A stretch of DNA of 46,855 bases from IMG/VR virus record IMGVR_UViG_3300044858_001239, positions 1-46,855 of that record, one strand, 5' to 3'. The position numbers and the translations under genes were made by a program. Below, piece after piece: positions 9,714 to 34,799 of the stretch. The notes beneath the pieces are model-generated. The model was given only the letters and a program-made list of their open reading frames with translations, ran no database searches and was not told the DNA's origin. The DNA comes from a virus. Numbering within the stretch: the first letter of the stretch is position 1; every line of letters begins with the position of its first letter.

Positions 9714-9944
9714 TTAGCCGATACGCCAGACCCTGATGCCTAGTATCCCGTCCTCCACACAAGTGTAGGCCTTGACCGGAACCTTAACTCTTTTTGACGT
9801 CACATCTATTATGTAATGCCCGTAGGCTGGGCGCATGGTAGGCATAAAGAAACTCTCCCCTACCTTCATGTACTGGTAGGGGAGTATCCACTCCGGTTCG
9901 GAATAGTCGATTAGCTGGTCAGCTTTCCTGGGGGGCCGCGTCAT
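9714..9944 (-). CDS. Small hypothetical protein, last gene of the early operon
   Basis: A 76-residue protein whose start lies inside the end of the primase-helicase gene (26 bp overlap), consistent with coupled translation. It has a basic, proline-containing N-terminus (MTRPPRKADQ) followed by alternating beta-like segments (YHYIIDVTSK-type, VKVPVKAYTCV). No known motif is recognised. Its stop codon touches the stop codon of the convergent giant gene with no spacer. It is probably a real gene because the frame is intact and starts in the usual coupled configuration, but function cannot be assigned. Confidence 0.6.
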   Translation of the reverse strand: MTRPPRKADQLIDYSEPEWILPYQYMKVGESFFMPTMRPAYGHYIIDVTSKRVKVPVKAYTCVEDGILGIRVWRIG

Positions 9945-12819: not shown

Positions 12820-12837
12820 AGCCTGTAGAGACAATAA

Positions 12838-12882
12838 GGGCAGGGACCAGCCCTGCCCGATCACAATAACCCGCTAAGCGGG
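12838..12882 (-). terminator. Two consecutive hairpins between the HTH gene and the primase
   Basis: The first hairpin (12870-12882) is CCCGC-TAA-GCGGG and contains the stop codon of the upstream gene. The second (12838-12858) has 8-bp arms GGGCAGGG/CCCTGCCC with a 5-base loop, followed on the minus strand by TTATTGT rather than a clean U-tract. They sit directly before the primase start. They could be partial terminators, RNA-processing sites or translation-coupling structures. The weak U-tract makes full termination unlikely, which would fit read-through into an essential replication gene. Confidence 0.5.
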
Positions 12883-13185
12883 GCCAGTTAAACTTTTGTA
12901 GTAGGCTTTACTAGACTTGTAATCCTCAAGCGGCAACACTCCTGCCGCTATGTCAGAATCAATAATTGCTATTAGGGCTTTGATGCGAGGCTCCCGTTCT
13001 GGTTGAATCCCTGCACCACGAAACCACATGTGGAGCGTCTGCCTACTAACATCTAGTAGATCAGCAACCATAGTAGACGGTAGGTTTGCGGCTATGCACT
13101 TCTTAGCCAACACAATACCCAGGCCGTCTCTTGCGGTCTTGCGGCGCAAAGACTCAATCAGTTCGGGACTGTAACCTCTAGGCAC
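12874..13185 (-). CDS. Small helix-turn-helix DNA-binding protein
   Basis: A 103-residue protein starting at GTG, overlapping the end of the preceding ssDNA-binding-like gene by 8 bases. Residues ~35-60 (STMVADLLDVSRQTLHMWFRG) read as a helix-turn-helix of the resolvase or transposase-helper type: small helix, turn at LDVSR, recognition helix ending in WF. The C-terminal third is helical (PLEDYKSSKAYYKSLTG). It lies between the ssDNA-binding protein and primase genes, so it may bind the origin or regulate the operon. Those roles are inference; only the HTH pattern is seen. Confidence 0.75.
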   Translation of the reverse strand: MPRGYSPELIESLRRKTARDGLGIVLAKKCIAANLPSTMVADLLDVSRQTLHMWFRGAGIQPEREPRIKALIAIIDSDIAAGVLPLEDYKSSKAYYKSLTGPA

Positions 13186-17259: not shown

Positions 17260-19130
17260 TAGCAATCTCCGTAAGAACGACCATATTTAGCTTCACAAGT
17301 AATGGGAAGCCCCGGTGCCCAACTAGGGCGTGTACTCATACATTCAACGATAAAGTCTCTTGCTTCCTCGACCTCATCCTCAGGTACGACGCATACTATA
17401 GCGTCATGCACTGTCAGTGCTGGCCTGTACTTCTCCGCAATAAGTAGCATCTGCTCACCGACTACGCAACGGGCAAGTGCCTGAACGACGTTCTCCACCA
17501 CGGAGCCACCCCAGATAGATACCGGTCCTTTTCTAGAGTCATAGACGGTACGCGTCTTAGTCTCGGAAGTATCTTTGCGGATGTTTGGGTAGCGTATGTA
17601 GAAATTATTAGGTAGCAGAATCCCCTGCGGCGTAGCTGTCAGACACTCCTGCACACCTATGTAGTAATCATTCTTGTCCTTGGGCCAGGAGATCAATTGA
17701 TTTAGTAGATCGTCACACTCACCCCATAGTTCTACTATCTTGTTGTTCTCGTCCCGATAGAGATCAACTATGTCTTTGGCTTGACTATCACTTACTACCG
17801 CGCCGGGTGGTTGAGTCTTCAGGGTATGCTGAAGCTTTGCTGAGCCTGTGCCATAGCCAAGCCCGAGGATGCAGGTCTTACCTACAAAGCGTTCTATCGG
17901 ATCTGCCTTACTGATAGGCCTCTTGTATATCTTAGTAGCGAACTCTGAGTAGACATCACGGCCTTCGGCAAAGGCTTCCACCACATCATTCTGACCAGCC
18001 AGCCACGCAAGCACACGGGCTTCTATCTGAGATGAGTCGCAGTTAATCACCATGTAGCCCTCTGGCGCTATCACGGCATTCTTCAAAGTCTTTTTCTTTT
18101 TGTCGCGGCTAGGCAGATTCTGGAAGTTCACTTTGTCTGAACCAGCCCACCGGCCTGTGTGTGCCCCGTAATACTTCAACGGGATAGGCAGCTTGTTGTT
18201 ATTCCTGGCGCCTACATCAATGAACCGCTTGATTCTTGACTCTTCGATTGTTGACTTTGTGCCAAGACGTACCGCGCATAGGTGCTGGATAAAGGTGTCC
18301 TCATGCTCAGTCAGCGCGATGAAGCCCTCGTCATTCTTAGCCAACGCGTAGGTTTGTTTACCGGTGGTCGGGCTTTCCTTCATGGGAACTTCTACTTCCA
18401 GTTCGGTCAACAGATTAGCGAACTGCTTGTTTGATGCCAGTTTTTTGCGTACCGCCTCCTCGTCCTCACACTTGAGTTTCTCTTTCAGGGAACCAAGCAA
18501 CTTAGACTTCTCTTCCCTCAGGTCATCTATCCTATCCAGTAAGATGTCTCTATCCACGTATAGCATGGGACTGATAAACATCCTTAGGGTTAAGTCGATC
18601 AGGCGTATCTCAGACTCTTGGAAGTTAGGCCCCATCAGACTGAACAACTTATGGGTTAGTTCTACATCGTTTTTGCAGTACTCACCGTAGCGGTTTAGTT
18701 CCTCTGGGGTGAAGTCAGCCTTGCGTTTGCCCTTGGCGTTGATCACCTCATCACCCTTCACACCGATCTGATAACGCTCAGACAGCTTAGCCAAAGACCC
18801 ACCAGCATCTACACCATGCAGGGCACGGGCCATAGACAGAGTGTCTAAGTACATCTTTGGATAGACGTTTAAGAACCAAGCAAGTATTGCCGCATCAAAC
18901 ATTGTGTTGTGGCATAAGAGTGCCGAGTCTTTCCAGGGCAGGGACAGTAGGTGCTTATTTAGCGTTTCACGTGACCCTGAAACCCAATATGCCGGTGCAT
19001 CGTTGACCTTTATGCCCACACCGATAACTTCAAAGTCTGGGCTACGGACGTACTCTTCTGTAGTGAGTCTTGATAGAGAGAACCCTGTGTCGTAGAACGT
19101 CTCAAAGTCTAGGCAGATTATGTTGTTCAT
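17259..19130 (-). CDS. Family A DNA polymerase with 3'-5' exonuclease
   Basis: A 623-residue polymerase. The proofreading domain is intact: LDFETF (residues ~5-10, DxE), HNTMFD (~75-80) and YCKNDVEL (Exo III). The palm has motif A CDSSQIEAR (~362-370), an O-helix/motif B region at GKTCILGLGYG (~413) and motif C TVHDAIVCVV (~572). Motif C shows HDA where Pol I has HDE; the catalytic Asp is kept. Length matches phage Pol A enzymes that lack a 5'-3' exonuclease. AAGGA precedes the ATG. It is the replicative polymerase and is flanked by a wHTH gene and a small helical gene. A copy of a dispersed repeat lies in frame near its start. Confidence 0.95.
   Translation of the reverse strand: MNNIICLDFETFYDTGFSLSRLTTEEYVRSPDFEVIGVGIKVNDAPAYWVSGSRETLNKHLLSLPWKDSALLCHNTMFDAAILAWFLNVYPKMYLDTLSMARALHGVDAGGSLAKLSERYQIGVKGDEVINAKGKRKADFTPEELNRYGEYCKNDVELTHKLFSLMGPNFQESEIRLIDLTLRMFISPMLYVDRDILLDRIDDLREEKSKLLGSLKEKLKCEDEEAVRKKLASNKQFANLLTELEVEVPMKESPTTGKQTYALAKNDEGFIALTEHEDTFIQHLCAVRLGTKSTIEESRIKRFIDVGARNNNKLPIPLKYYGAHTGRWAGSDKVNFQNLPSRDKKKKTLKNAVIAPEGYMVINCDSSQIEARVLAWLAGQNDVVEAFAEGRDVYSEFATKIYKRPISKADPIERFVGKTCILGLGYGTGSAKLQHTLKTQPPGAVVSDSQAKDIVDLYRDENNKIVELWGECDDLLNQLISWPKDKNDYYIGVQECLTATPQGILLPNNFYIRYPNIRKDTSETKTRTVYDSRKGPVSIWGGSVVENVVQALARCVVGEQMLLIAEKYRPALTVHDAIVCVVPEDEVEEARDFIVECMSTRPSWAPGLPITCEAKYGRSYGDC
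18956..18985 (-). repeat. Dispersed palindromic element, in-frame copy inside the DNA polymerase
   Basis: The + strand reads TATTTAGC followed by GTTTCA-N8-TGAAAC and CC, the same unit that precedes three early promoters at 32.4-34.3 kb. On the coding strand it is read as Ser-Gly-Ser-Arg-Glu-Thr-Leu-Asn. The core palindrome occupies 18964-18983 and also contains CACGTG. It is a possible binding site of a phage regulator, or an inserted repeat tolerated in frame. Confidence 0.6.
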
Positions 19131-19322
19131 CTAGTCCTTTATCTTGTAAAGAAGCACATTGCCTTGGTAAAACTTATCCACAACTTGTTTCTCGACGAAC
19201 TTGTTCAAGGCTCGGGCCACAGACGGCTGAGACACGATGAAATATTTAGCCAACTGCTTAGATGTCACTGGGCGTTTATGTTCTACCAGATAGTCCCACA
19301 CCTTTTCTTCAATTGTTCTCAC
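19131..19322 (-). CDS. Winged-helix DNA-binding protein
   Basis: A 63-residue protein. AGGAG lies 7 bases before GTG 19322, which decides that start over GTG 19328 one base from the AGGAG. Nearly the whole length is one winged helix: IEEKVWDYLVEHKRPVTSKQLA (helices 1-2), VSQPSVARALNKF (recognition helix) and a wing VVDKFYQGNVLLYKIK. It overlaps the DUF3310 gene end and immediately precedes DNA polymerase. A small transcriptional regulator or origin-binding protein are both possible. Confidence 0.8.
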   Translation of the reverse strand: MRTIEEKVWDYLVEHKRPVTSKQLAKYFIVSQPSVARALNKFVEKQVVDKFYQGNVLLYKIKD

Positions 19323-21536: not shown

Positions 21537-21724
21537 AGCGGTGACTCCTCATGGGAAGCCGCAGTGTGCTTCATCTTCTTCACACACTTACGCGGCACAA
21601 TGATGTAAAGGGGGAAGGGCCAGTCCACTTGTGGAATGCGGATAGTTACTTGTTCACCATCCGGTGAAATGCTACTCACAACCCCTGCCTGATCGTTAAC
21701 TGTTACCCAGTCATCAGGCTTCAT
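21533..21724 (-). CDS. Small SH3/KOW-like hypothetical protein
   Basis: A 63-residue protein with strand-rich sequence MKPDDWVTVNDQAGVVSSI, EQVTIRIPQV and LYIIVPRKCVKKM, which looks like a small beta barrel of the KOW/SH3 type. It ends in a polar tail. The frame is intact and coupled to both neighbours. Function unknown. Confidence 0.6.
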   Translation of the reverse strand: MKPDDWVTVNDQAGVVSSISPDGEQVTIRIPQVDWPFPLYIIVPRKCVKKMKHTAASHEESPL

Positions 21725-22371: not shown

Positions 22372-22790
22372 CTAAAGTCCTCTAGATATCTAAGGGTTGG
22401 TCGATCATTCGCAATATGACTACCACCGATAGTGCGAAAAGCTAACTTATACTCCCCGCCCCTCAAATATGTCAAGTACCTACTAGGTAAAACCACTACA
22501 AAAAGATTTGTTGCCACTTGCCAGCCAATCTCATACGTATGGCTCTTGGGGTCTCCTTCATAGATGTGTTGAATGGTAGCCAGCTTCATGTCAAAGTCAG
22601 GCGGCTCTATAGTTGCGGCTCTGATCATTGTCAGACGAGACTTTATTTCGTCTGGTAGATCATCCTCTGTAAAGAGTCTGATGAAGTTGTCGCCGACATA
22701 TACTTCATATTTGCCATGTATATGGGCCACTGGCACACGATGATGATCGTTAAGAGTCGCATGTTGTATGGGCGACAGTTTAGTTTGCAT
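22347..22790 (-). CDS. Hypothetical protein sharing a domain with its upstream neighbour
   Basis: A 147-residue protein starting within the end of the 323-residue gene (ATGCAAACTAA overlap). It contains GKYEVYVGDNFIRLFTEDDLPDEI then a helix with MIRA, and ends in a beta strand LFVVVLPSRYLTYL. The same order (GKYTF..., FNEEDLPSEV, MHRI, YYIYIFP) is seen at the end of the 323-residue neighbour, so the two appear to share a duplicated domain. No known family is recognised; it belongs to the block with MoxR and VWA. Confidence 0.65.
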   Translation of the reverse strand: MQTKLSPIQHATLNDHHRVPVAHIHGKYEVYVGDNFIRLFTEDDLPDEIKSRLTMIRAATIEPPDFDMKLATIQHIYEGDPKSHTYEIGWQVATNLFVVVLPSRYLTYLRGGEYKLAFRTIGGSHIANDRPTLRYLEDFRWERRLRR

Positions 22791-23751
22791 CGCTAGTTTC
22801 TTTGTATGGGAAGATGTATATGTAGTAAGTTCCTATCGTTGAAGAAAAATGTGTGTAGTAGGTAACAGTCTCAAAGTCTTCGTCATAGTTATCCTGTCGT
22901 AACAGTAGCCCGTGCATAGGCGTAGGTCCTATCGTTGGATAGCCTTTGTACAACTCATCTTTAGATATCCTGTGCATCTTCATGTGGACAGCCACTTCTG
23001 ATGGTAGATCTTCCTCGTTAAAACAGGGTTTCACCTCACCCTGAAACGTATACTTACCTCCTTCTTTCTGGGCTACACCATAGACAATTGGTGTAGTTTC
23101 TGAACCGGTAATTACGTGTACGCGGTCAAACTTACTTAGTTCTTGCTTGAGCGCGGCAATAGTTCCCTCAGTTTTTTGGTGTTTATCAAAATACTCTTTA
23201 AGCTTACTCATGTGATAGTTATCTATCGGTTTGTCATCAAATATATGCTGTAGTATTTCCCACTCCATATCGCCGTTTATAAAGCTTTGATGATAGCTAG
23301 AGCCATAGCTACTACCTTTTCTTAGGCTACTCTCAATCGTAGACTTGATTGCGTCATGTTCGACACGAATTTTAGTCGGTCTTTCATGCTCTGGTTTGAA
23401 ATCAGAAAAGTCTTGCTTTAGCTGACGAATCAAGAACTTCAGGTTCTCAGACCTACGTATAAACCTATCGTCACCACGACCACGTTCTTTTTTGACATAG
23501 CTAGATCTGACTGAGTAGATCATACGATCTTGTTTGGCTTTCTCATTCCAGGTTACGCCAGCATCTACAAGGGCAATATCTTCATGGTTACGACTGACAA
23601 GCATCACTTGACCATTGCGCTTACAGAATGCCTTTAGAAAGAAGTGATGGCACATCTCAGCAACCAAGGCTTTGAGTTCCTTGTTGCTCTCCACATGAGC
23701 CTTGAGTTCGTCTGACGCGAAAGGGTGAAAGATGTCATAGGTATGTGTCAT
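22780..23751 (-). CDS. Hypothetical protein of the MoxR/VWA block, 323 aa
   Basis: Starts with an ATGA overlap after the 266-residue gene. The N-terminal half is helical and charged (ELKAHVESNKELKALVAEM, RSENLKFLIRQLKQDF), with a serine-rich segment near ~150 (GSSYGSSYHQSF). The C-terminal ~110 residues carry the domain shared with the following gene (EEDLPSE). Tight coupling to the VWA and MoxR genes suggests a substrate or adaptor of that machine, but nothing in the sequence proves it. Confidence 0.7.
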   Translation of the reverse strand: MTHTYDIFHPFASDELKAHVESNKELKALVAEMCHHFFLKAFCKRNGQVMLVSRNHEDIALVDAGVTWNEKAKQDRMIYSVRSSYVKKERGRGDDRFIRRSENLKFLIRQLKQDFSDFKPEHERPTKIRVEHDAIKSTIESSLRKGSSYGSSYHQSFINGDMEWEILQHIFDDKPIDNYHMSKLKEYFDKHQKTEGTIAALKQELSKFDRVHVITGSETTPIVYGVAQKEGGKYTFQGEVKPCFNEEDLPSEVAVHMKMHRISKDELYKGYPTIGPTPMHGLLLRQDNYDEDFETVTYYTHFSSTIGTYYIYIFPYKETSDAN

Positions 23752-24549: not shown

Positions 24550-25815
24550 TCACACCTCCTTCTCTACAAAGACTTTTTTACCAACAGGCGGCACGAAGTT
24601 TTTATTCTGCGTGACCATCCACAAGACCGGTGCGGCGTGGTTCCAATTGATGCTGCTCTCCACATGACCATCGGTGAAGACCACGACACACTCGGCGTTT
24701 ACTGACTTCTTGATTAAGTATTCACTGACAGATGAAACCTTAGTTCCGCCGCCACCCACGGGTTTGAGTGCCGTAGCGATACTCTGGTAGTTGCCTTTGA
24801 AGTTCTGCTCTGCGTGAACCTTGGTGTCCCACCACAAAACGCGCACAGCTTCAGGCGAGACAGAATCGCAAATAGAGACCAGTTCTCCGGCAAACTCTGC
24901 GAGTTCCTTGCCACCGATAGACCCGCTAGTGTCAATAGCAACGACAATCTCACCCACACTCTCGCTGATCGTGGCTGGCATGTAGACATCGTTAGCCACC
25001 AGACGCCGGTTGAACTTGCGCCATGTGTACTCGTCCTTGCCTACCGTGTGTGATGTGATGAAATCACGCATGACCTCACGCCAGTTGATCTTCGGCTCAA
25101 GCAGTTCCTCAATGCTTCTATCCTTTTTAGCACCGAGGATGCCAGCCAGTATGCCGCCCTGACGCAAGGCTCTGTCGATCTTCTCGCCCATCTCCTTCTC
25201 GTCTAGTTCAGCACCAGCCTCGATGTCATGCTCATCGAACTGCGGCTCGTTGCCTAGGTTCTTCAGTAGCTGATCAATGTCTGTCTGCTGAGGTTTGTCT
25301 GACTTGTCGCTATTTAGCGTTTCACCTGACCCTGAACCCTTACCTTGCGAACCACCTTGCTTGTCAAGTTCCTGCTTGCGTTTGCGTAGATAGTCAAACA
25401 CTTGAACGACTGACCAGTCTCTGAATTGTAGATTCCACAGCGCACCAGGGGGTAACTGCACCTCTTTGATGTCTAGCCTGACGATCATGTCATTGACCAC
25501 AAAGTCTGCGGCACAGTTTGCTATCTGCCTATCTTCGTGGAAGAGACGCTTGTGGTGCGTCACATGCCGGTAGAACACATGACCGTTCTCGTGCATGATC
25601 AAGCCGTTGACCTGCGCATCGTCAAGACCTTCCATGAACTTAGCGCCGTAACGCTTGTTCAGACCGTCGGTGTACGCAGTGGGCACATTCTCCTCTACGC
25701 TTGAGTTGCCCAACAAGATCACACCAGAAAGCATGGCGATCTTGGGGTGACGGAGCAGGAAGTTGTGACACCGAGTCAGCCTCTCCCTCTGCTTCTCTAC
25801 TATGTTTGTTTTCAT
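24550..25815 (-). CDS. VWA-like protein with zincin metallopeptidase domain (DUF2201 type)
   Basis: A 421-residue protein with TAAGGAGG before ATG. The N-terminal domain has the metallopeptidase motif H75-E-N-G-H79 (LIMHENGHVFYRH). A low-complexity linker (KQGGSQGKGSGSGET) contains a copy of the dispersed repeat. The C-terminal VWA-like domain keeps MIDAS residues: DTSGS (295-299), the GGGGTKV threonine and FTDG (~377). This is the architecture of DUF2201 proteins that pair with MoxR-type AAA+ ATPases. The next upstream gene is exactly such an ATPase, so the two probably form a chaperone or metal-insertion machine (RavA-ViaA or CobS-CobT style). The target in a phage infection is unknown. Confidence 0.88.
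   Translation of the reverse strand: MKTNIVEKQRERLTRCHNFLLRHPKIAMLSGVILLGNSSVEENVPTAYTDGLNKRYGAKFMEGLDDAQVNGLIMHENGHVFYRHVTHHKRLFHEDRQIANCAADFVVNDMIVRLDIKEVQLPPGALWNLQFRDWSVVQVFDYLRKRKQELDKQGGSQGKGSGSGETLNSDKSDKPQQTDIDQLLKNLGNEPQFDEHDIEAGAELDEKEMGEKIDRALRQGGILAGILGAKKDRSIEELLEPKINWREVMRDFITSHTVGKDEYTWRKFNRRLVANDVYMPATISESVGEIVVAIDTSGSIGGKELAEFAGELVSICDSVSPEAVRVLWWDTKVHAEQNFKGNYQSIATALKPVGGGGTKVSSVSEYLIKKSVNAECVVVFTDGHVESSINWNHAAPVLWMVTQNKNFVPPVGKKVFVEKEV
25311..25339 (-). repeat. Dispersed palindromic element, in-frame copy inside the VWA gene
   Basis: The + strand reads TATTTAGC then GTTTCA-N8-TGAACC (core 25319-25338). In the coding strand it is read as Ser-Gly-Ser-Gly-Glu-Thr-Leu-Asn, the same phase and nearly the same peptide as the copy inside DNA polymerase. 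It lies in the disordered linker of the protein, where an insertion would be tolerated. Confidence 0.58.
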
Positions 25816-25825
25816 GCTTACCTCC

Positions 25826-26899
25826 TTAGATCAGGTGATGATTCTCAAGCGCCCACTTCTGTACCTCTGGGTTAGTACGGGCGAACTTGGCCTTGGAACT
25901 ACGCAACAACACAACAAACCACACAGACTGCACCTCTTGGCTCTTGATGCGATTGATGAACCGCTGGAACTTATTGAGCGCATCCTGACTGTCGATATGG
26001 TCAATGGCCTGGAAGATCATCAACAGAAGCGGTGCGACATCATCTTCATTGGGCAGTGGTACGCCTTCAGGATTCTTTATGACATCTTCGATCTTCGTAA
26101 CCTTAGACTCCATCGAGATGAACGCAGTCATATCTCTCGCCGCTCGTTCGCCGATAGTGCCAGCCAGTAATCCAAGAGTTATGTCCTCAGACAGTCTGGC
26201 CTTCACAACAAAGTCAGCCTTGTGCAATGACCGTGGAGATACGAAAGACATCTTGGTCATTGACGGCTGGAAGATATACGGATTGTCTGCTTGGTCCTCG
26301 TCCATGTAAGACTTCAGCATCCGTGGGTACATCGCCACAGTTGCACGAACCACCGTGCTGATACCCGCATCAGTCGCCCAGCCCAGCCACTCACGCATCG
26401 TTGGCTTGCTCATCTTCACGATAGCTAGCCGGTTCGCCGTGTGTGCTGGCAGTGAGTCACCCACACCATCGCTTGTATTGTTAGATGTTGCGAACACGAA
26501 AGACCCTTTGGGCAGAGGCTCGTCACCCACCGTACGTTCTAGATACATCCGTGTGTAGATCGGCTGCATCAGCTTGGGAACCTTCAGCGCCTCGTCGATC
26601 ATGATGACCTTCTTCTTGCCGTTACCCATCTTGAACAGTGACGCCACGTAATACTCCAGCGCCTTGGTCTCATGGTTGGGAATGCTTGCGGCAATGTCCA
26701 TCATTTCTTTGTTGGGACCGTCAACATAGATGAAGTCATACTCCTCGGTTCCCATCTCACGCTCAAGGTCGTGCAGGATGGCAGTCTTGCCACAGCCAGG
26801 CTCGGACAAGATCATCACAGTTACATCCATGCCAATGGCTTTGATAGCCTCTTTGACTTGGTCACGGGTAAGGGTGGGGTAAGTTGTAATAGCAGACAT
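25826..26899 (-). CDS. MoxR-like AAA+ ATPase
   Basis: A 357-residue ATPase starting MSAITTYPTL; AAGGAGG six bases upstream fixes this start over one 24 codons earlier. Walker A is SEPGCGKT (~30-37), Walker B VIMIDEA (~97-103), followed by a sensor FATSNNTSDGVGDSLPAH and an arginine-bearing segment. The fold and lid match MoxR/CobS-type chaperone ATPases, which act with VWA proteins to remodel complexes or insert metals. The VWA partner is the next gene. The RBS region matches that of three other early genes (GGAGGTATCACATG type), suggesting matched expression. Confidence 0.9.
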   Translation of the reverse strand: MSAITTYPTLTRDQVKEAIKAIGMDVTVMILSEPGCGKTAILHDLEREMGTEEYDFIYVDGPNKEMMDIAASIPNHETKALEYYVASLFKMGNGKKKVIMIDEALKVPKLMQPIYTRMYLERTVGDEPLPKGSFVFATSNNTSDGVGDSLPAHTANRLAIVKMSKPTMREWLGWATDAGISTVVRATVAMYPRMLKSYMDEDQADNPYIFQPSMTKMSFVSPRSLHKADFVVKARLSEDITLGLLAGTIGERAARDMTAFISMESKVTKIEDVIKNPEGVPLPNEDDVAPLLLMIFQAIDHIDSQDALNKFQRFINRIKSQEVQSVWFVVLLRSSKAKFARTNPEVQKWALENHHLI

Positions 26900-26910
26900 G
26901 TGATACCTCC

Positions 26911-27117
26911 TTATTTGATGGTTGAATACTTCTTGACTAACTTCTGAATAAACTTCTTTTCGTATGCCCAACGACTGTCATCATCCATGTAGTACTCACC
27001 GAGACCTTCGTGTGGGCCATGCTTTTTACGCATGTCTTTCTCAAACTGCATACCTATTTTCCAGTACCCATCGTCTAAGTCTTCCCAGACTTTTTTCCAA
27101 TCAATCACTATCCTCAT
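26911..27117 (-). CDS. Small charged hypothetical protein
   Basis: A 68-residue protein with TAGGAGGTATCAC before ATG. It is rich in Trp, Tyr, Asp and Lys (WKKVWEDLDDGYWKIGM, GEYYMDDDSRW) and mostly helical. It sits between the DUF3150-like and MoxR genes. It might be an adaptor of that module, but no family is recognised. Confidence 0.65.
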   Translation of the reverse strand: MRIVIDWKKVWEDLDDGYWKIGMQFEKDMRKKHGPHEGLGEYYMDDDSRWAYEKKFIQKLVKKYSTIK

Positions 27118-27139
27118 GTGATACCTCCTAGTTAGTGAT

Positions 27140-28024
27140 TCAGGCTAGGGTGATGTTGAATTTAGAGAGGATGTCATCCATCCCATCCTTCACGGTGGCA
27201 CGCACGGCATCAGAGTCTCGGATGTCGTCAGCCGTCAAGTTACCTATTACTCGCATCGCGTCCTTTCTCATATCGTCAAGTACTTCATCGTTGGTCACAT
27301 TGAACTTCTCTAACATTGAGCATAGCTCCTTGACCTGATTAAGCGTCGAGTCATACACCTTGGGCTTGCGCTTGCCTTCTTCTGGCTCACTACACGCATG
27401 GGCCACACGCTTAATTAAATCTGTCAGTTGCTCACCCACAGTACGCATGATGCCCCGCACCGCATCCGTAGCACACCGCTCGTAGTGTTGCTTCAGATCT
27501 TCAGCGATATCCTCGGCGATAGCACACCGGAAGTCATTTGCGGCTACGGGCTGGATGTTCAAGTGCATAGAGAACCGATTACCTATCTCAGCCACAGACG
27601 GGTACTCAGAACTGTCGAACATGTCGCCTTGCTTGAATGCCATCTCAGCAATGATGTCGGGATAGCGGCGCTTGAACTCTTCGATAAGTATTGTGTGTTC
27701 AGCCTCAAACTCACGCCACTCTTGCTTGTACTTATCAATCATGACAAAGGGCAGGATGCGGTTGTCACCAGCCCAGTCGTATGTGCGGCGCTTGTTCCAG
27801 TTGTAGATTGACTGACGGTGCAGCAAGATCTTCTTGTGGGTTGGGTCATCTGCCAAAAGATTCTTGGTGAACTTACCCGCAGAACGCGAGGCTTTGTATG
27901 CGTCTGTCACCTCACCAGAGATGCGTTTGTCCTGTTTTGTTGCAGACCACACACGCACATCGACGTTGACAACGAGTGAACTAGTAGCAAGAGACAAAAG
28001 ATAGTCAGGTTTCTGAAGTTCCAT
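27140..28024 (-). CDS. DUF3150-like protein of the MoxR/VWA module
   Basis: A 294-residue protein from ATG 28024, two bases after a microprotein stop (TGAAATG). The N-terminus VRVWSATKQDKRISGEV, then SAGKFTKNLL and NRILPFVMIDKYKQEW, matches my memory of the DUF3150 family, which is encoded beside MoxR ATPases in phages and plasmids. The C-terminal part is helical. It probably completes a MoxR-VWA complex; the biochemical role is unknown. A longer start 13 codons up would run through the microprotein and is rejected. Confidence 0.75.
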   Translation of the reverse strand: MELQKPDYLLSLATSSLVVNVDVRVWSATKQDKRISGEVTDAYKASRSAGKFTKNLLADDPTHKKILLHRQSIYNWNKRRTYDWAGDNRILPFVMIDKYKQEWREFEAEHTILIEEFKRRYPDIIAEMAFKQGDMFDSSEYPSVAEIGNRFSMHLNIQPVAANDFRCAIAEDIAEDLKQHYERCATDAVRGIMRTVGEQLTDLIKRVAHACSEPEEGKRKPKVYDSTLNQVKELCSMLEKFNVTNDEVLDDMRKDAMRVIGNLTADDIRDSDAVRATVKDGMDDILSKFNITLA

Positions 28025-28025
28025 T

Positions 28026-28109
28026 TCACACCCCCATGATGTTGAGATAAAGGATACCGGCACAGATAGCCAGCACGATGAAGTAAAAGATAAAGATCAT
28101 TTGACCCAC
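28026..28109 (-). CDS. 27-residue single-span membrane microprotein
   Basis: Too short for ordinary ORF calling. From GTG 28109 the frame reads 27 residues, almost all hydrophobic (MIFIFYFIVLAICAGILYL), ending GV-stop two bases before the DUF3150-like ATG. GGAGG lies 7 bases before the GTG. The spacing and coupling match the surrounding genes, and the region would otherwise be a gap. A role at the inner membrane (toxin-like, holin-like or regulator) is possible but not shown. Confidence 0.62.
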   Translation of the reverse strand: MGQMIFIFYFIVLAICAGILYLNIMGV

Positions 28110-28422: not shown

Positions 28423-28800
28423 TTAGTTAACCCGAAGTATTGTGATCTCGGTTCTGTCTGCATTGAACTCAGTCATGTAGTTCTTAGACCCAAACAATCT
28501 ACGACCTGAGTTGCACACGACTGAGCGCATGGTGTCAGGGTGGTACTTGCATGGGATCGTCGCCGTCTGCCCAGGCTCAAGCGGGGCGATGTACTCATTA
28601 ACATATTCAGACGGCTCACCCCTCTTTGCCTCAGGGTTGCGAGTTTTAACGTTTATGGTCTTAACTTTCTTCTGCGGCTCGATGATGCCGTTGGGGTCGT
28701 GCAGTACTACTTCACCGTCAGCAAGAATAACTTTGAACGATGCGCCACTGTTGCGCAGAAATGTGAGTTGCGACTCCGTCGCTTTGCGGATGATGTTCAT
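28423..28800 (-). CDS. Hypothetical beta-rich protein
   Basis: A 125-residue protein rich in strands (FKVILADGEVVLHDPNGI, KVKTINVKTRNPEA, GQTATIPCKYHPD), resembling a small double-barrel. The RBS AGGAG is rather far from the ATG (about 12 bases), so expression may be modest. No family is recognised. Confidence 0.65.
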   Translation of the reverse strand: MNIIRKATESQLTFLRNSGASFKVILADGEVVLHDPNGIIEPQKKVKTINVKTRNPEAKRGEPSEYVNEYIAPLEPGQTATIPCKYHPDTMRSVVCNSGRRLFGSKNYMTEFNADRTEITILRVN

Positions 28801-28807
28801 GATGGTT

Positions 28808-29065
28808 TCACTCTCCTATGAAATAACAATTAAAGGTCTTGGCTGGGACATCCACGAAGTAGTGGTTCTCGCACATGCTCGTTGCTTGCACCGTACTCTT
28901 GAACTCGTCCCATCCGGTCACGTAGTAGGTCTTACCGCGTATGTCTACAACGATGTCACCTACTTCTAACTGCTCGGTCTTACCGTTCAAGTACTTCCTC
29001 ATTAACTTCATTGGCATCATACGAACCTCTCTTTCTTTAATGTCTTGCTCTGTCCACAAATTCAT
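28808..29065 (-). CDS. Hypothetical SH3-like small protein
   Basis: An 85-residue frame. ATG 29065 overlaps the upstream stop as ATGA, but GAGAGG lies five bases before an internal ATG at 29020 (MMPMKLMRKYLNG), so a 70-residue product is equally possible. The core LEVGDIVVDIRGKTYYVTGWDEF reads as a small beta barrel. Unknown function. Confidence 0.6.
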   Translation of the reverse strand: MNLWTEQDIKEREVRMMPMKLMRKYLNGKTEQLEVGDIVVDIRGKTYYVTGWDEFKSTVQATSMCENHYFVDVPAKTFNCYFIGE

Positions 29066-29720: not shown

Positions 29721-29932
29721 CTCACGATCCCTCCTTTGTTGTTGATACCCACCAAGTCTTCACGATTAAATGCAGGGAAGTAGTGACCCTTGTGCATCGG
29801 CACGACAGTGAACTGCACCATCCGCGCACTCTTCTCCCCACACGCCATGCACATGACTGGCTTGCCCTCTGCCACAAGCCACGCGGCACGGCGACTATCT
29901 ACGTCTTCACCACAGTGTGAACAGCTATTCAT
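29717..29932 (-). CDS. DksA/TraR-like C4 zinc-finger protein
   Basis: A 71-residue protein from ATG 29932 (GAGGAG upstream). CSHCGEDVDSRRAAWLVAEG and CMACGEKSAR form a C-x2-C ... C-x2-C zinc finger like that of short TraR/DksA proteins, which insert into the RNA polymerase secondary channel in phages and plasmids. The remainder is beta-rich. An RNA polymerase role is an attractive early-gene function, but zinc ribbon of another kind remains possible. Confidence 0.65.
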   Translation of the reverse strand: MNSCSHCGEDVDSRRAAWLVAEGKPVMCMACGEKSARMVQFTVVPMHKGHYFPAFNREDLVGINNKGGIVR

Positions 29933-30395
29933 CGTCCTTCTCCTCGTCGAAACAATCGTATGAGACATTCAGATATGCACTTCTTCGCACATCCAATATC
30001 TCCCACATCTCAAAGTAAGTCTTAGCTTCTTCGTCTACTTCTACATCGTTGTAGTCTTCGCCAATACGCACGAACCTGTAGTTACCGGTGTAGTACTCAT
30101 TGGCTTTCTTTAAAACTTCCTGATGCCACTTGACGTCTGCAAAGGAGTCGTACCACTTGACATCCTCCACCTCAAACAACATAAGCAGGGCTGAACCGGA
30201 CCACTTGATGAGTCTGTCTTCGTTCGCATATGTGTGAGTACGCATTACGTTTAGTGGTGTAGACGCATCGGATACTGAGATGGTGTGTTTGTTCTTCACC
30301 CAGTCCTGAAACGCTATGTAGTCGGCAAACGCTTTCTCGGGTTGGTCGTTGTGGTAGAACTTCACGACATAGGCCACATCTGATCTGTATCCCAT
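29925..30395 (-). CDS. Conserved phage protein of unknown function (MGYRSDVAY family)
   Basis: A 156-residue protein with GGAGGGACTAG before ATG. The opening MGYRSDVAYVVKF is a recurring phage and bacterial sequence without assigned function. It continues with acidic alpha/beta segments (SALLMLFEVEDVKWYDSF, NYRFVRIGEDYNDVEV). The end overlaps the zinc-finger gene. No catalytic motif is seen. Confidence 0.75.
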   Translation of the reverse strand: MGYRSDVAYVVKFYHNDQPEKAFADYIAFQDWVKNKHTISVSDASTPLNVMRTHTYANEDRLIKWSGSALLMLFEVEDVKWYDSFADVKWHQEVLKKANEYYTGNYRFVRIGEDYNDVEVDEEAKTYFEMWEILDVRRSAYLNVSYDCFDEEKDDE

Positions 30396-30586: not shown

Positions 30587-31147
30587 GGTGATACCTCCTA
30601 GGTTGGGTGTTGATGCAGAGCGCATCAAGGGAAGCACGACCGGCCGGCCATGCTTCCGAAGTTGAACTCTGATGATGTCGTAGAGATACGCTTTTGTGTT
30701 CCCAGCTATTTATGCTGTCACCTGTAGGTGAAAGGTTAGGAACTGAGTCAGGGCCAGATTGCCAGTCTGGTTATGCAGTGCCGCCTCTCATGGGGCGACC
30801 TTGGTGTTGACTGCGCTGACTCTTACATGCCGGTACTGCTCGGTAACTATTTGCTTTTTGCACTGCTTGGCTTTTTGTCGTGTGGACGGGCATACAGGGA
30901 CTACCCTGTTATGGCATTGCGGTTCGTACTGCTCCGTCTTGTGATGCCTGACTTGGTATGGGGTTGCTGTCCCCGCTCCGTAACGGCACACGATAGAGGT
31001 GTGCAAATAGCGTTTCACCCCACCGTGAAATGAGAATGAAACCCTACGCCTACGGCACGCTGGCGTAAAAGACGCCAGACACTAGATTGTTAAAGAACGA
31101 TTCAGCGGGGTGTGAACTGCTAATCAAGAAACAACAAACAACGCCCT
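30587..31147 (-). ncRNA. Highly folded leader of the main early transcript
   Basis: About 560 bases between the early promoter and the first gene hold no convincing frame but at least seven perfect hairpins: 31060-31078, 30986-31004 (GCACAC/GTGTGC), 30894-30909 (ACAGGG/CCCTGT), 30754-30770 (CCAGA/TCTGG), 30718-30731 (TCACCT/AGGTGA), 30630-30657 (GGAAGCA/TGCTTCC) and 30610-30628 (TTGATGC/GCATCAA). A copy of the dispersed palindrome lies at 31012-31031. None has a U-tract. A regulatory leader or stable small RNA is likely. Confidence 0.5.
31060..31099 (-). promoter_or_regulatory. Nut-like anti-termination site (boxA plus hairpin)
   Basis: The minus strand reads CGTTCTTTAACAAT at 31086-31099, one mismatch from the rrn boxA consensus (YGCTCTTTAACA), then seven bases later the perfect hairpin CTGGCGT-CTTTT-ACGCCAG at 31060-31078, in the position of a boxB. 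It lies about 50 bases after the expected start of the main early transcript, the location expected for a NusB/NusE-loaded anti-termination site on a 20-kb operon. Confidence 0.6.
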
Positions 31148-31158
31148 GCCGAAATCGT

Positions 31159-31187
31159 ATTATATCACATATTATGTAATAGCGCAA
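31159..31187 (-). promoter_or_regulatory. Main leftward early promoter, extended -10
   Basis: On the minus strand TTGCGC (31182-31187) is followed after exactly 17 bases by TATAAT (31159-31164), with the extended -10 TGA directly before it. Predicted start is near 31150. The perfect -10 makes this the strongest sigma70-type promoter in the window; it drives the leader and the chain of genes to 9714. Confidence 0.75.
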
Positions 31188-31234
31188 GGCCTTTATCTGA
31201 CTATTTAATTCGTGGGGCCAGGGTCGTGGCGGTG

Positions 31235-31608
31235 TGTTCCGCGTGTTCCGGCTGTGTTCCAGCTGAGTGGAACAAGAAAAGTGTGAGGATTATAGGGAGT
31301 TTGGTTCTGTAAGTTGTTGAATAATAATAAATAAATATATATATATATAGAGAGAGAAGGGAAAAAATAGTGAAATGTTCCAATGTTCCAGCAAAATTGG
31401 AGAACGATCCCCTTTTGCGTTTTTTTTGTGTTTGCGAATTTTGCATCGCTCGGCTTCCCTCCCTTTTGCATTTTTTCTTCCAAACCCCTCTCTTCTCCGA
31501 AAACACTGGAACATTGGAACAAGGTGGGTTAAGTCTATGATTGCAAAGGGAAAACCCTGTTCCAGTCCACTGGAACAAAAAGGCCTTTTTTGCCCCATTC
31601 GTGTTCCA
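31235..31608. other. Candidate replication origin: TGTTCCA repeat field with AT-rich tract
   Basis: Eleven TGTTCC/GGAACA copies lie in 374 bases: at 31235, 31244, 31255, 31268, 31376, 31384, 31508, 31516, 31558, 31571 and 31602. They form two inverted pairs (31255/31268 and 31558/31571, both 13 bases apart) and two direct pairs (31376/31384 and 31508/31516, both 8 apart, in opposite orientation), a nearly mirror-symmetric layout. An AT tract with ATATATATAT (31320-31350) and long pyrimidine runs lie between. No gene is credible here. Iterons plus an AT-rich unwinding tract are the hallmark of an origin; operators for a phage regulator are the alternative. Confidence 0.55.
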
Positions 31609-31623
31609 ACGAGGCTAAATTAG

Positions 31624-31643
31624 TGTTCAGGGTGCCGTGAATC
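31624..31643 (-). repeat. Dispersed palindromic element, intergenic copy
   Basis: The + strand reads TGTTCAGGGTGCCGTGAATC followed by GCTAAATA, matching the GTTTCA-N8-TGAAAC unit with three changes. No convincing promoter follows it, so it may be an orphan site. It lies beside the repeat field of the candidate origin. Confidence 0.5.
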
Positions 31644-31764
31644 GCTAAATAGTGGTCTTGCCTCTTGACAACCAGGCCAAAAAAGATTACGCTGTGGCTC
31701 ACAGCGTAACCCAGACCAAGCGCGTTCCACCACGCGCGCGCACAGAATAAGAACTGGCTTCAAT

Positions 31765-31794
31765 CGCCCCGCCAAACTTTCGTCTGGCGGGGCG
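31765..31794 (-). terminator. Strong hairpin after the 194-aa gene
   Basis: Arms CGCCCCGCCA/TGGCGGGGCG (10 bp, all G/C-rich) with a 10-base loop lie 5 bases after the stop of the leftward gene. There is no U-tract, so it may act as a weak terminator or 3'-end stabiliser. Confidence 0.6.
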
Positions 31795-31799
31795 GGTTA

Positions 31800-32384
31800 C
31801 TACTTCACAGCAAAGAAGGCCTTGATCTGGCGATCAAGTAAGGCGAGGTCTGCCGTGGCATCTCCTCTGGCCTTCGCGTTTTTGCAACGCGTCTTGATAT
31901 CGTCCATCTCTGAAAGTATCCAGACCGCAAAGTCTGCCGTTGCCGCGCGGGTTCGCTCGGTCGGGTCAATCAATTGCTTGATCGCCTTGCGTATCGCGCC
32001 CAGGACATTGCCCTTGTACTTATTGAAGGCAGTGCGCCATTTGCTATGGATACCATGTAACAGCGGATCAGTGTTTTTCATCTGACCATGTTGCTGTTGA
32101 CTGTAGGCCATGACCGAGAAGATGCTGACCTCTACCTTCTCGCCCTTCTCTGCTACCTTACCCTTGCACAAGACTAGGTTGCCGTCTACGCGCAGGTAAG
32201 TCTGGGCAGGGTGTCGCTCAGAATATCTGAGCATGATCCCGTCCACGATTTCCGCCATTACATCATCAGGCGGGCTGTCCAAGAATGTTGGGCAGTTATC
32301 GAAGATGAACTTGGCAGAGTCTGCCACAGTGTCACCGGCCTTGGCTGCGTTGTAAGACGCATCCTTGTATGACTTAATAGTCAT
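31800..32384 (-). CDS. Early paralogous protein A, 194 aa
   Basis: Leader TAGGAGGTATCACC before ATG, own promoter at 32431-32459 and own hairpin. The protein is homologous along most of its length to the 245-residue protein encoded next door: DGIMLRYSERHPAQTYLRVDG aligns with REGYMLRFNEIKPAVTYVAVD, then SIFSVMAYSQQQHGQMKN with HTAFAYTQQAFGALKN, and GIHSKWRTAFNKY with EIRTKFNKYVSN. A basic helix follows. No known family is recognised. Duplicated, individually promoted early genes often act on host functions; DNA binding is possible. Confidence 0.75.
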   Translation of the reverse strand: MTIKSYKDASYNAAKAGDTVADSAKFIFDNCPTFLDSPPDDVMAEIVDGIMLRYSERHPAQTYLRVDGNLVLCKGKVAEKGEKVEVSIFSVMAYSQQQHGQMKNTDPLLHGIHSKWRTAFNKYKGNVLGAIRKAIKQLIDPTERTRAATADFAVWILSEMDDIKTRCKNAKARGDATADLALLDRQIKAFFAVK

Positions 32385-32430
32385 GGTGATACCTCCTAAA
32401 AAACCAGAATCCGTCTGGCGCGGTGATTAT

Positions 32431-32481
32431 GTTGTATGACATTCTTGGACGATTGTCTAGGGTTTCAGGGTGTCGTGAATC
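32431..32481 (-). promoter_or_regulatory. Early promoter with upstream palindrome (gene at 32384)
   Basis: On the minus strand: palindrome GATTCA-N8-TGAAAC (32462-32481), two bases, -35 TAGACA (32454-32459), a 17-base spacer and -10 TACAAC (32431-32436). The layout is identical to the promoters at 33413 and 34226. Confidence 0.65.
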
Positions 32482-32549
32482 GCTAAATAACGCGCTTGCC
32501 CACCCACACGCGCGCACAAACACAGAACTGGTATCAAAACGCTGGGCGC

Positions 32550-32592
32550 AAAAAAAGGCGCACCAGTCAAGCCGAAGCCTGACTGGTGCGCC
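32550..32592 (-). terminator. Rho-independent terminator after paralogue B
   Basis: On the minus strand a 13-bp perfect stem GGCGCACCAGTCA/TGACTGGTGCGCC with a 10-base loop is followed by seven T residues. It lies 5 bases after the stop of the 245-residue gene and is the cleanest terminator on this strand. Confidence 0.85.
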
Positions 32593-32597
32593 GAAGG

Positions 32598-33335
32598 TTA
32601 CTTCGTCGTTTCCTGATACTTAGTGATCACGCCTTTGAAAGCCGCGATTGCATCGTCGATTACCTTGGTAGGCAAGGCGGTATCATCTTTGCCTACCGAT
32701 GACGCGTTAATCGCGCGCTGTCTGATAACCGCAAGAATCGACTTATTCGGGTCTTTTTTCGGGCCCGTCAGAAGCCATTCGATAAAGGAAACCGATTCCC
32801 GTGTCGCGGTAATCCCGTTATCTTCGCGGTATATCCTAGCCGCATCGCGTTTTAGATCTTTGAGCCGGTTCGATACATACTTATTAAACTTAGTACGAAT
32901 CTCGCCGAGAATCGAGTGCTTGCCCGGTTCCTCATTCTTCAGCGCGCCGAAGGCTTGCTGAGTGTAGGCAAAGGCGGTATGCACACTAGCCTCAAACCGT
33001 TCGGCTTTTGCTGGTGGCTTCGCAAGGTCTGATTCTTTGACCCATTGATTATCAACCGCGACATAAGTAACCGCCGGCTTGATTTCGTTGAACCGAAGCA
33101 TATAGCCTTCCCTTAGTTCAGTCTTATGCTCATCGCTGAACGGCTCATCGACTGAACCTAAGCCGGGAATCAACCGCATCAAGCCGCGCGTCACGCCTTC
33201 GGACACACCAGCGACTTTGGCTTGCTGGTAGCCGCCGTCGCGAACCGTCGCGATGTTAAGGTTAATGCTTACCGTATCGGAAACGGCGGCGGAGACTGCG
33301 GGTACTGATACTTCGGTTTTAATGGCTTTAGCCAT
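32598..33335 (-). CDS. Early paralogous protein B, 245 aa
   Basis: Starts MAKAIKTEVSVPAV at ATG 33335; GGAGA seven bases upstream rejects a longer start. After a small-residue N-terminus it shares its central and C-terminal helices with paralogue A (VTYVAVDNQWVKE, FAYTQQAFGALKNEEPGKHSILGEIRTKFNKY). It has its own palindrome-associated promoter and a strong terminator, forming a single-gene unit. The C-terminal helical part is basic. Family unknown; a regulator or host-takeover protein made at high level is possible. Confidence 0.78.
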   Translation of the reverse strand: MAKAIKTEVSVPAVSAAVSDTVSINLNIATVRDGGYQQAKVAGVSEGVTRGLMRLIPGLGSVDEPFSDEHKTELREGYMLRFNEIKPAVTYVAVDNQWVKESDLAKPPAKAERFEASVHTAFAYTQQAFGALKNEEPGKHSILGEIRTKFNKYVSNRLKDLKRDAARIYREDNGITATRESVSFIEWLLTGPKKDPNKSILAVIRQRAINASSVGKDDTALPTKVIDDAIAAFKGVITKYQETTK

Positions 33336-33412
33336 GATGTTTCTCCAAAAATACTCTCGCTTTGCCCCGGCGGAGAGCGAACCGTACCGGCTCAACCATG
33401 AGCCGATGATTT

Positions 33413-33463
33413 CTTATATGATGTTTCTAAGGAATTGTCTAGGGTTTCAGGGTACGCTGAAAC
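33413..33463 (-). promoter_or_regulatory. Early promoter with upstream palindrome (gene at 33335)
   Basis: On the minus strand: palindrome GTTTCA-N8-TGAAAC (33444-33463, perfect arms), two bases, -35 TAGACA (33436-33441), exactly 17 bases and -10 TATAAG (33413-33418). The site just upstream of -35 is the place of an activator, or of a repressor blocking polymerase entry. Confidence 0.7.
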
Positions 33464-33517
33464 GCTAATCAGTCACGCGCACACACCGCGCGCGCCCACG
33501 GACACATAACTGGTATC

Positions 33518-33534
33518 AAAGGGGCCGAAGCCCC
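33518..33534 (-). terminator. Terminator after the 81-aa gene
   Basis: On the minus strand GGGGC-TTCG-GCCCC (33521-33534) followed by TTT. The stable UUCG tetraloop and position six bases after the stop support termination; the U-run is short. Confidence 0.65.
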
Positions 33535-33539
33535 AATGA

Positions 33540-33785
33540 CTAACCCCAGGTCCCAATCCTTACAGGGTCTGGATACCACATGACCGAGAGGTCACTATGT
33601 CTGACATGGTCGACATTCGTCTCCACGAAGGCACACGCTAGTTTGTGTGCATCGTTATAGGTGACGCCATGCCGCGTGAACAGGGTAACCATGCGACTAC
33701 CCTTTGTAAAAACATTCTCCTCATCACCCGTCACCGAAGGATCAAGGACCTCGATCTTTACTACCAATTTGCCATATGCACTCAT
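33540..33785 (-). CDS. Small early protein, 81 aa
   Basis: GGAGA six bases before ATG. The sequence is strand-rich with GKLVVKIEVLDPSV, SRMVTLFTRHGVTYND, then a helix AHKLACAFVETNVD, similar in outline to small phage host-modulating proteins. It lies after a hairpin/U-tract that sits directly in front of its ribosome site, so it may be less expressed than the genes before it. No family is recognised. Confidence 0.68.
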   Translation of the reverse strand: MSAYGKLVVKIEVLDPSVTGDEENVFTKGSRMVTLFTRHGVTYNDAHKLACAFVETNVDHVRHSDLSVMWYPDPVRIGTWG

Positions 33786-33799
33786 GATGCTCTCCTAAG

Positions 33800-33818
33800 A
33801 AAAAGGGACCGAAGCCCC
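33800..33818 (-). terminator. Hairpin and U-tract overlapping a ribosome site (attenuator-like)
   Basis: On the minus strand GGGGC-TTCG-GTCCC is followed by TTTTT, then immediately by the ribosome site of the next gene. It divides the 53/67-residue pair from the 81-residue gene. Partial termination, or occlusion of the RBS, would lower expression of the downstream gene. Confidence 0.55.
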
Positions 33819-33822
33819 ATGG

Positions 33823-34026
33823 TTAAAGTAACTTCATAATTTCTTGTTTGTACCGCTCTTGCTCTCGCCTGATGTTTCCTATCTTTCGCTGAGTAAGCAT
33901 ACGAATCTCTAATACCCTCGATGCTTCGGGTCTGCGTTTCAATCTCAAATCCAATACTTCTTGTGCCGTAAGACTCATCGCGTACCGGATTATGTCCAGT
34001 TCAGGGAATAGTTCTAACTGTTTCAT
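33823..34026 (-). CDS. Small early protein with sliding-clamp motif QLELF
   Basis: A 67-residue protein (GGAGA upstream; ATG overlaps the upstream stop as ATGA). It begins MKQLELFPELD. QLELF is close to the beta-sliding-clamp-binding consensus QL[S/D]LF and sits at the exposed N-terminus. The rest is helical and basic (EVLDLRLKRRPEASRVLEIRM, then a coiled coil). With its neighbour carrying QLDLF, a clamp-targeting role (recruiting or blocking host replication) is likely enough to test. It could also be a coincidental small early protein. Confidence 0.7.
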   Translation of the reverse strand: MKQLELFPELDIIRYAMSLTAQEVLDLRLKRRPEASRVLEIRMLTQRKIGNIRREQERYKQEIMKLL

Positions 34027-34184
34027 TGCTGTTTCTCCTCTTCTAAGTTAACCAACGAATACCAATCAATCGTGTATTGCTCATGCTTCGCTTGCTCTAG
34101 TTCCTCGGGGAATAGATCTAACTGAATAAAGCCTGTGTATCTGTACTGGATCAATTGATCCATAGTCATTACTGTCTGGGTCAT
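34023..34184 (-). CDS. Small early protein with sliding-clamp motif QLDLF
   Basis: Below usual ORF length. From ATG 34184 (GGAGAGCATC upstream) 53 residues: MTQTVMTMDQLIQYRYTG, then QLDLFPEELEQAKH (residues 21-34) and an acidic end LEEEKQQ. The pentapeptide QLDLF is the ideal bacterial DnaN-binding motif. The first gene of its transcript, directly under the palindrome promoter at 34226. It overlaps the QLELF gene by ATGA. Intact frame, RBS and shared QL[DE]LFPE motif support a true gene. Confidence 0.72.
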   Translation of the reverse strand: MTQTVMTMDQLIQYRYTGFIQLDLFPEELEQAKHEQYTIDWYSLVNLEEEKQQ

Positions 34185-34225
34185 GATGCTCTCCGATGAT
34201 TACCGGAACATACCGGCATGAGTTT

Positions 34226-34276
34226 GTTATATGACAGCCTAGGGGATAAGTAAATGGTTTCAGGGTGACCCTACCT
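34226..34276 (-). promoter_or_regulatory. Early promoter with palindrome-derived element (genes 34184-33540)
   Basis: On the minus strand: ACCCTGAAAC half of the element (within 34257-34276), two bases, -35 TTTACT (34249-34254), 17 bases and -10 TATAAC (34226-34231). Spacing equals the promoters at 33413 and 32431, but the distal palindrome arm has decayed. Confidence 0.65.
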
Positions 34277-34799
34277 ACCCCCTACCCCCCTAACCGCCCA
34301 GATGGGACCCGCCGCCCCCAATACCCCATGATTTATACAAATCGCGCCACACTTCTCAAAACTTTTTCCGCCAAGACGTACTTAACTCTCTTTTTTCCGC
34401 CAAGACGTACCTAACTTTCCCCTACAAAATCATATAGTTACAGCAACTCCGCGCCCCTTCAGACATAAAAATTAAAAAAGCCGGCTTTTTAAAAACGGCA
34501 TTAAGTACCTTTAAATTCGCTATCAAACCCGCGTGGCTAAGCCAATCTCCGTACCTCTCCAAATAAACCTATCTCGGGTCCTCAACTCCGTACGTTGTCA
34601 AACACAATACTTTCAGGGTACGCTTCTCTCGGGGGTAGGTAGTCGGCGCGGCGACTCTAAATAGCCCGTAACCTTTGGCTGAAGGTGCAAATGAACCCTA
34701 CCCCCTCCCCTATCAAATTTCTCAGTATTATTTGATACCCCCGTACTTACGAAACACCCCCCTTGTGTTTTTTGGTTCCATGGTGTATTTTCGGGACCC
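34277..34799. other. Divergent intergenic region before the late operon
   Basis: About 520 bases without a gene, C/T-rich on the + strand. It holds a 28-base tandem repeat (34362-34420), a palindrome AAAAAGCCGGCTTTTT near 34475-34490, and a decayed copy of the dispersed element at 34610-34629 (TTTCAGGGTACGC). It lies directly before the putative small terminase, where cos or pac sites are often found. A weak TTGTGT-N17-TATTTT (34763-34791) would start the late transcript one or two bases before the ATG; this is uncertain. Confidence 0.5.
34362..34420 (+). repeat. Two-copy tandem repeat, about 28-base period
   Basis: The units share TTTTTCCGCCAAGACGTAC followed by T/C-TAACT. Both lie upstream of the terminase genes. 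They could be sites for terminase or for a late activator. Confidence 0.7.

Follow-up and report, generated by a model that had tools for sequence, protein, structure and literature searches.

The DNA analysed here, called the window throughout, is the IMG/VR record IMGVR_UViG_3300044858_001239, a virus sequence of 46,855 bases. Its leftward early region carries three early promoters, P1 to P3, which are all read on the minus strand and have spacers of 17 nt. P1 (34226-34254) combines a -35 box TTTACT (34249-34254) with a -10 box TATAAC (34226-34231), P2 (33413-33441) has TAGACA (33436-33441) and TATAAG (33413-33418), and P3 (32431-32459) has TAGACA (32454-32459) and TACAAC (32431-32436). They look like ordinary sigma-70 promoters that would require no activator. 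Under P2 stands an early minus-strand gene at 32598-33338 (ORF 32598-33395) and under P3 a second one at 31800-32384, also on the minus strand. The two are paralogues, with 29% identity between 31800-32384 and the ORF 32598-33395, and the family occurs in nearly all genomes with the array described below. Between the divergent early and late genes, a non-coding stretch holds two copies of a direct repeat, TTTTTCCGCCAAGACGTACYTAACT (34363-34416), possibly a late-promoter or regulatory element. The plus (late) strand bears a single ORF of 2354 aa (2649-9713).

An initial annotation of this DNA had described a palindrome, GTTTCA-N8-TGAAAC, with one decayed copy, that ends two bases before the -35 box of three promoters with 17-base spacers, and this arrangement was confirmed on the sequence. 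The predicted operator of P2 (33444-33463) has no mismatches and a distal flank GCTAAT; it is kept in the relatives L009, L010 and L012, and the arrangement recurs upstream of the same gene family. That of P3 (32462-32481) has one mismatch and the distal flank GCTAAATAAC, and is kept in L009 and L010. At P1 we predict a half operator (34257-34276), wherein the promoter-proximal TGAAAC (34257-34262) is kept and the distal half (34271-34276) has been lost; the close relatives L009 and L010 show the same half-only state, and the segment adjoining the half-site is kept in L009, L010 and L013. The two nucleotides between palindrome and -35 box are CC at P2 and P3, and CA at P1.

The link between the motif and these three promoters is real but proved too narrow, since most copies lie away from promoters and the element itself extends further, into CTAnnTAG flanks. 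Allowing three mismatches at most, the 12-base pattern matches the window 46 times against 23.6 +/- 5.4 in shuffled sequences, none of 100 shuffles reaching 46. We also ran an unbiased scan, with no motif given, that paired each short word with its reverse complement at all gaps from 0 to 20. The top dyad word of the window was TTCA-N8-TGAA, with 19 copies against 1.33 expected, nearly all of them in early DNA and most away from promoters. A reversed control pattern was near zero in the loci. A weight matrix was seeded with the best copies of the window and trained on such sites, and therefore the unbiased dyad scan is the independent test. About 15-20 copies of a 16-bp dyad lie along the leftward early region, at promoters, before genes and inside genes.

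The weight matrix located further predicted operators in the window. Three of these occupy non-coding DNA: one downstream of the gene 31800-32384 (31624-31643; 31 bits, both flanks), which has counterparts in L009, L032 and L040, another at 31099-31118, with a similar site in G002 at 53437, and a third at 31012-31031, kept in L009. The long non-coding stretch at 31237-31620 contains many GTTCCA and TGGAAC words, and stretches likewise rich in TTCCA flank the matching site of L091 and L097. Other copies are predicted within genes, namely in polA (18964-18983, a position kept in six genomes), in the ORF 22780-23751 (23028-23047, with perfect arms) and in the linker of the VWA (DUF2201) gene (25319-25338; 32 bits). 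Weaker sites were found inside the ORF 29925-30395 (30293-30312, kept in L009) and at the 3' end of the gene 27140-28063 (27137-27156; 23 bits); the latter has the same gene-end place in G002 and lies near the matching boundary in G009, G011 and G015. Probable weaker operators stand at 21651-21670 (about 20 bits, in both orientations) and 29904-29923 (20 bits, both flanks), and a possible weak one before the ORF 28423-28800 (28805-28824; 14-18 bits). The VWA gene possibly holds a second operator (24719-24738), 172-184 nt from the stop in six genomes; it overlies a stretch that is apparently conserved in the protein too, where codon constraint is possible, and was not counted as strong. A match at 17816 in polA was dropped, as it overlies a conserved protein stretch. 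The conservation of intragenic sites over conserved codons (17816, 24719) may be due in part to the protein. The VWA-like metallopeptidase (DUF2201), an AAA ATPase and a conserved 307-aa protein follow one another in a row (24550-28063) that is kept in 21 of 21 genomes, and the Planktothrix phage Pag-Yong1 has homologues of the VWA and 307-aa proteins.

Relatives of the window, in records of up to 60-65 kb, were gathered by terminase and polA searches, and are not independent samples. The unbiased scan finds the same N8 geometry in about 20 of them, whereas the word drifts by lineage: TTCA in most, CTCA in G007, TCCA in G029 and G033, and CCCA in G032. The family-wide dyad is YYCA-N8-TGRR, and the version of the window is TTCASS-N4-SSTGAA with CTAnnTAG flanks. 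Summed over 20 genomes, the class words form 250 dyads at gap 8 against about 22 at each other gap; these words were picked from the gap-8 scan, and the same words at other gaps serve as the control. Early DNA of the 20 genomes holds 230 of the gap-8 dyads in 450 kb, and late DNA 20 in 511 kb. Seven genomes that were compared have 13-18 sites each. A second dyad, ATGT-N8-ACAT, is enriched in L135, L136, L137, L145 and L187, which are contigs with the CCCA word or the same type of helix-turn-helix (HTH) protein.

A nucleotide search of the window against the phage collection gave no match, and a search for copies in bacterial genomes found one relative only, on an uncultured bin contig. The array was not found in the stretches read from the nearest cultured relatives by terminase (DSL-LC04, 023Pt_psg01, HTVC027P and Pag-Yong1), nor in the Pseudomonas phages KPP25 and Rollin. 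It is present in the cultured Rhizobium phage RHph_TM3_14A (L250), which has a similar early gene set and a polA 34% identical. Here the dyad TTAC-N8-GTAA (GTTACC-N6-GGTAAC) occurs 26 times against 0.38 expected, with the same geometry, and many copies lie 11-15 nt before start codons. The early family 31800/32598 shows no similarity to the first early gene of this phage. A 'putative integrase protein' annotated in RHph_TM3_14A (30601-33684) matches the primase/helicase family of the window (9919-12864; E 7.8e-85), and this annotation looks wrong.

The placement of the sites is conserved as well. Upstream of the early family 31800/32598, a dyad is present in 56 of 67 promoter regions, and in 27 of these 56 the best -10 box is 24-25 nt away. 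The element occupies an equivalent position at orthologous promoters, whatever the specificity class, with an AT-rich flank, GCTATTTAGC, kept upstream in all classes; absence of the motif from such promoters was looked for in relatives and did not occur. Within genes, the distance between dyad and stop codon is 1712-1732 nt for polA in six genomes, and 730-782 nt for the VWA linker in all of the seven that were compared. For the dyad at 23028 this distance is 210-258 nt, both here and in G004, G009, G011 and G015, though the protein of this ORF has only 24% identity to its G004 homologue and no blastp match in G009, G011 and G015. An exact polA dyad occurs in 12 of 85 polA genes, and on the contigs with it 92 further dyads were counted where 4.6 would be expected. 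The polA dyad of L158 lies 9 nt from where it normally is, still in that part of the gene. Sites that are not completely contained within an ORF amount to 26%, against 7% of random places, although most sites are still intragenic, and those before ribosome-binding sites to 17% against 9%.

Across 186 distinct cores the left and right half-sites change almost without regard to each other, as fits a DNA dyad read by a dimer rather than an RNA stem. CTAnnTAG-like flanks exceed the background on both sides, and the extended half-site, TGAAAC-S-CTA, reaches into the -35 hexamer. Among 215 non-promoter sites the better flank is upstream in 108 and downstream in 64, with 43 ties, so that their orientation is mixed. 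In the window alone, internal sites seemed to face opposite to the promoter sites, as a polar roadblock would have them; this possibility was rejected on the mixed orientation of the 215.

Which protein would bind the dyads is a separate question. The initial annotation had looked to several small HTH proteins of the early operon, but the small winged-helix genes at 19131, 20741, 21249 and 21714 are not conserved across the array genomes, and were rejected as a common binder. One other HTH protein, of 103 aa (12874-13185, minus strand), is conserved: its family occurs in 20 of 21 genomes compared, the exception being a 20-kb piece, and among those proteins of the window's early region that can be recognised as DNA-binding, it alone is conserved wherever that region is covered. 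It matches HTH_3 with an E value of 3e-4, below the curated cut-off, and HTH_3 is matched by 16 of 28 family members. We regard it as the leading candidate, a tentative choice whose chances we put a little short of even.

Co-variation tests did not single out this protein, and the operator class varies together with many columns of several proteins, not those of the HTH family alone; for this family a partial distance correlation gave 0.01. Co-variation of the recognition helix was set aside as proof: the match between Ser/Thr at residue 47 and operator base 2 fails in just one of 28 contigs, but columns of other proteins follow that base as well. The HTH family was not found in the stretch read of RHph_TM3_14A, though the array is present there, and its match to gene 045 of that phage is weak (probability 54%). 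A relative of the HTH protein from L187 had no tblastn match in 50,697 phage records, and a PDB sequence search with both candidate families, the HTH one and 31800/32598, returned nothing convincing. Other universal early families without a known fold are possible binders.

We favour, with somewhat more confidence than doubt, a reading in which these dyads are dispersed operators for a dimeric regulator encoded by the phage, which would serve to shut off early transcription. A homodimer of HTH type would bind the dyads, whose half-sites are about one helical turn apart. At P1 to P3 the promoter-proximal arm abuts and partly overlaps the -35 box, and a bound dimer would exclude the host RNA polymerase. 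Elsewhere in the early region the many bound sites would add to the silencing, by acting as roadblocks on elongation or through cooperative binding. As the regulator, probably encoded in the early operon, accumulates, early transcription would be turned off. The drift of the word between related phages makes a phage-encoded binder the most likely one. Repression is preferred to activation, since P1 to P3 are sigma-70-like, an operator arm enters the -35 box and most sites are not at promoters. The phage regulator of the initial annotation is well supported by the drifting word, the fixed geometry and the maintained placement at promoters, but the contact with RNA polymerase that it derived from the constant phasing is not established, as occlusion fits this placement equally.

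A tyrosine or serine integrase was not found in 17 records, some of them maybe incomplete, and so prophage silencing does not readily suggest itself as the purpose. Early shut-off during lytic growth would be the simplest one, though lysogeny in an extrachromosomal state may occur.

Other explanations have to be weighed against repression by a phage dimer. An activator made by the phage and touching RNA polymerase at early promoters, with the other copies as decoys or at unseen promoters, would suit a dyad centred near -47, and would account for the 24-25 nt held between dyad and -10 box and for the AT-rich flank kept in all classes. However, the fixed spacing across relatives fits activation and repression alike, P1 to P3 already have both boxes at 17-nt spacing, and the many sites away from promoters are not predicted by such a model; an activator of the first genes would moreover have to be produced before their transcription. 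We consider this reading unlikely, although with a real share of the probability. Slightly more doubtful is the proposal that the sites organise or partition early DNA or its replication, through a ParB/KorB-like clamp, a nucleoid protein or an origin complex, with effects on promoters being secondary. In its favour are the many sites dispersed inside and between genes, and a resemblance of the half-site GTTTCA(C) to parS and of the flank GCTAAA to the KorB operator. Against it, the sites end at the early/late boundary, N8 is the only enriched gap, which a contiguous parS palindrome would not give, and no ParB-type Pfam match was obtained among the early families of the window that were scanned.

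That the phage exploits the sites of a host transcription factor seems quite improbable. Phages with many host-factor sites do exist, such as those with CtrA sites in alphaproteobacteria (PMC9437464), but here related phages differ in the word at constant geometry, and the sites span the whole early region, largely within genes, instead of being concentrated at promoters. Chance, duplication of repeats or codon usage can hardly have made the palindromes. P2 and P3 precede paralogous genes and could share ancestry, and the match at 17816 overlies conserved codons; but cores differ between sites while the arms are kept, and the excess at gap 8 over other gaps is more than 10-fold in 20 genomes. 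It is just as hard to credit an RNA hairpin in the early mRNA: a 6-bp inverted repeat can fold, but compensatory changes of the arms were looked for and were absent, with near independence over the 186 cores, and at P1 to P3 the element precedes the transcription start of the promoter to which it belongs.

Under the preferred reading, of operators for a phage repressor, the wider meaning of the array lies in its setting. Temperate phages are known to use dispersed operators to keep a prophage silent. Here a palindromic version occurs in the early regions of a large and mostly uncultured group of phages. No integrase was found in this group, within which the word has drifted into at least four forms, and the cultured Rhizobium phage has a further one. 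Why a phage that is possibly never lysogenic maintains 15-20 operators within and around its replication genes becomes a testable question, for which RHph_TM3_14A, being cultured and having 26 strong copies, offers a ready system. A bolder suggestion, to which we give rather little credence, is that of a widespread lytic family without integrases that uses a self-specific operator code. Its regulator would silence the early region of its own phage and of close superinfecting ones, an immunity-like exclusion without lysogeny, from which lineages would escape through new words at constant geometry.

Several known systems use one regulator at many scattered sites. The temperate phage phiC31 has many conserved inverted repeats, bound by the phage repressor, at early promoters and elsewhere; the array is alike in having many inverted repeats at early promoters and beyond, while the type of phage, the sequence and the repressor differ. 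The c1 sites of phage P1 are asymmetric and the KorB sites of RK2 are contiguous 13-bp palindromes. Both resemble the array in being scattered over promoter and non-promoter places, but here the half-sites are N8 apart. parS is likewise contiguous, as a 16-bp palindrome, unlike the dyad described here, for which N8 is the only enriched gap. The CtrA-site arrays of alphaproteobacterial phages serve a host factor and are mainly intergenic, with a high density of sites (PMC9437464); the density of regulator sites is alike, but here the geometry is constant and the word drifts.

The closest parallel is found in Cluster A mycobacteriophages such as L5 and Bxb1, which have 20-30 copies of one site throughout their genomes, placed at the early promoter and in the short gaps between genes, with a word that drifts between relatives (PMC6550527, PMC9283540). 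The array likewise has many dispersed copies, sites at early promoters, and a drifting word. Cluster A phages are temperate and have an immunity repressor, and their sites, when bound, halt RNA polymerase during elongation. The stoperators of L5 are, however, 13-bp, asymmetric sites bound by a monomer and mostly in one orientation (PMC9283540), whereas the sites described here are palindromic with two equal half-sites, occur in mixed orientation and in phages where no integrase was found, and are largely intragenic and confined to the early region. Judged from its sequence, the array would work like the mycobacteriophage stoperators, yet it is not a member of that system.
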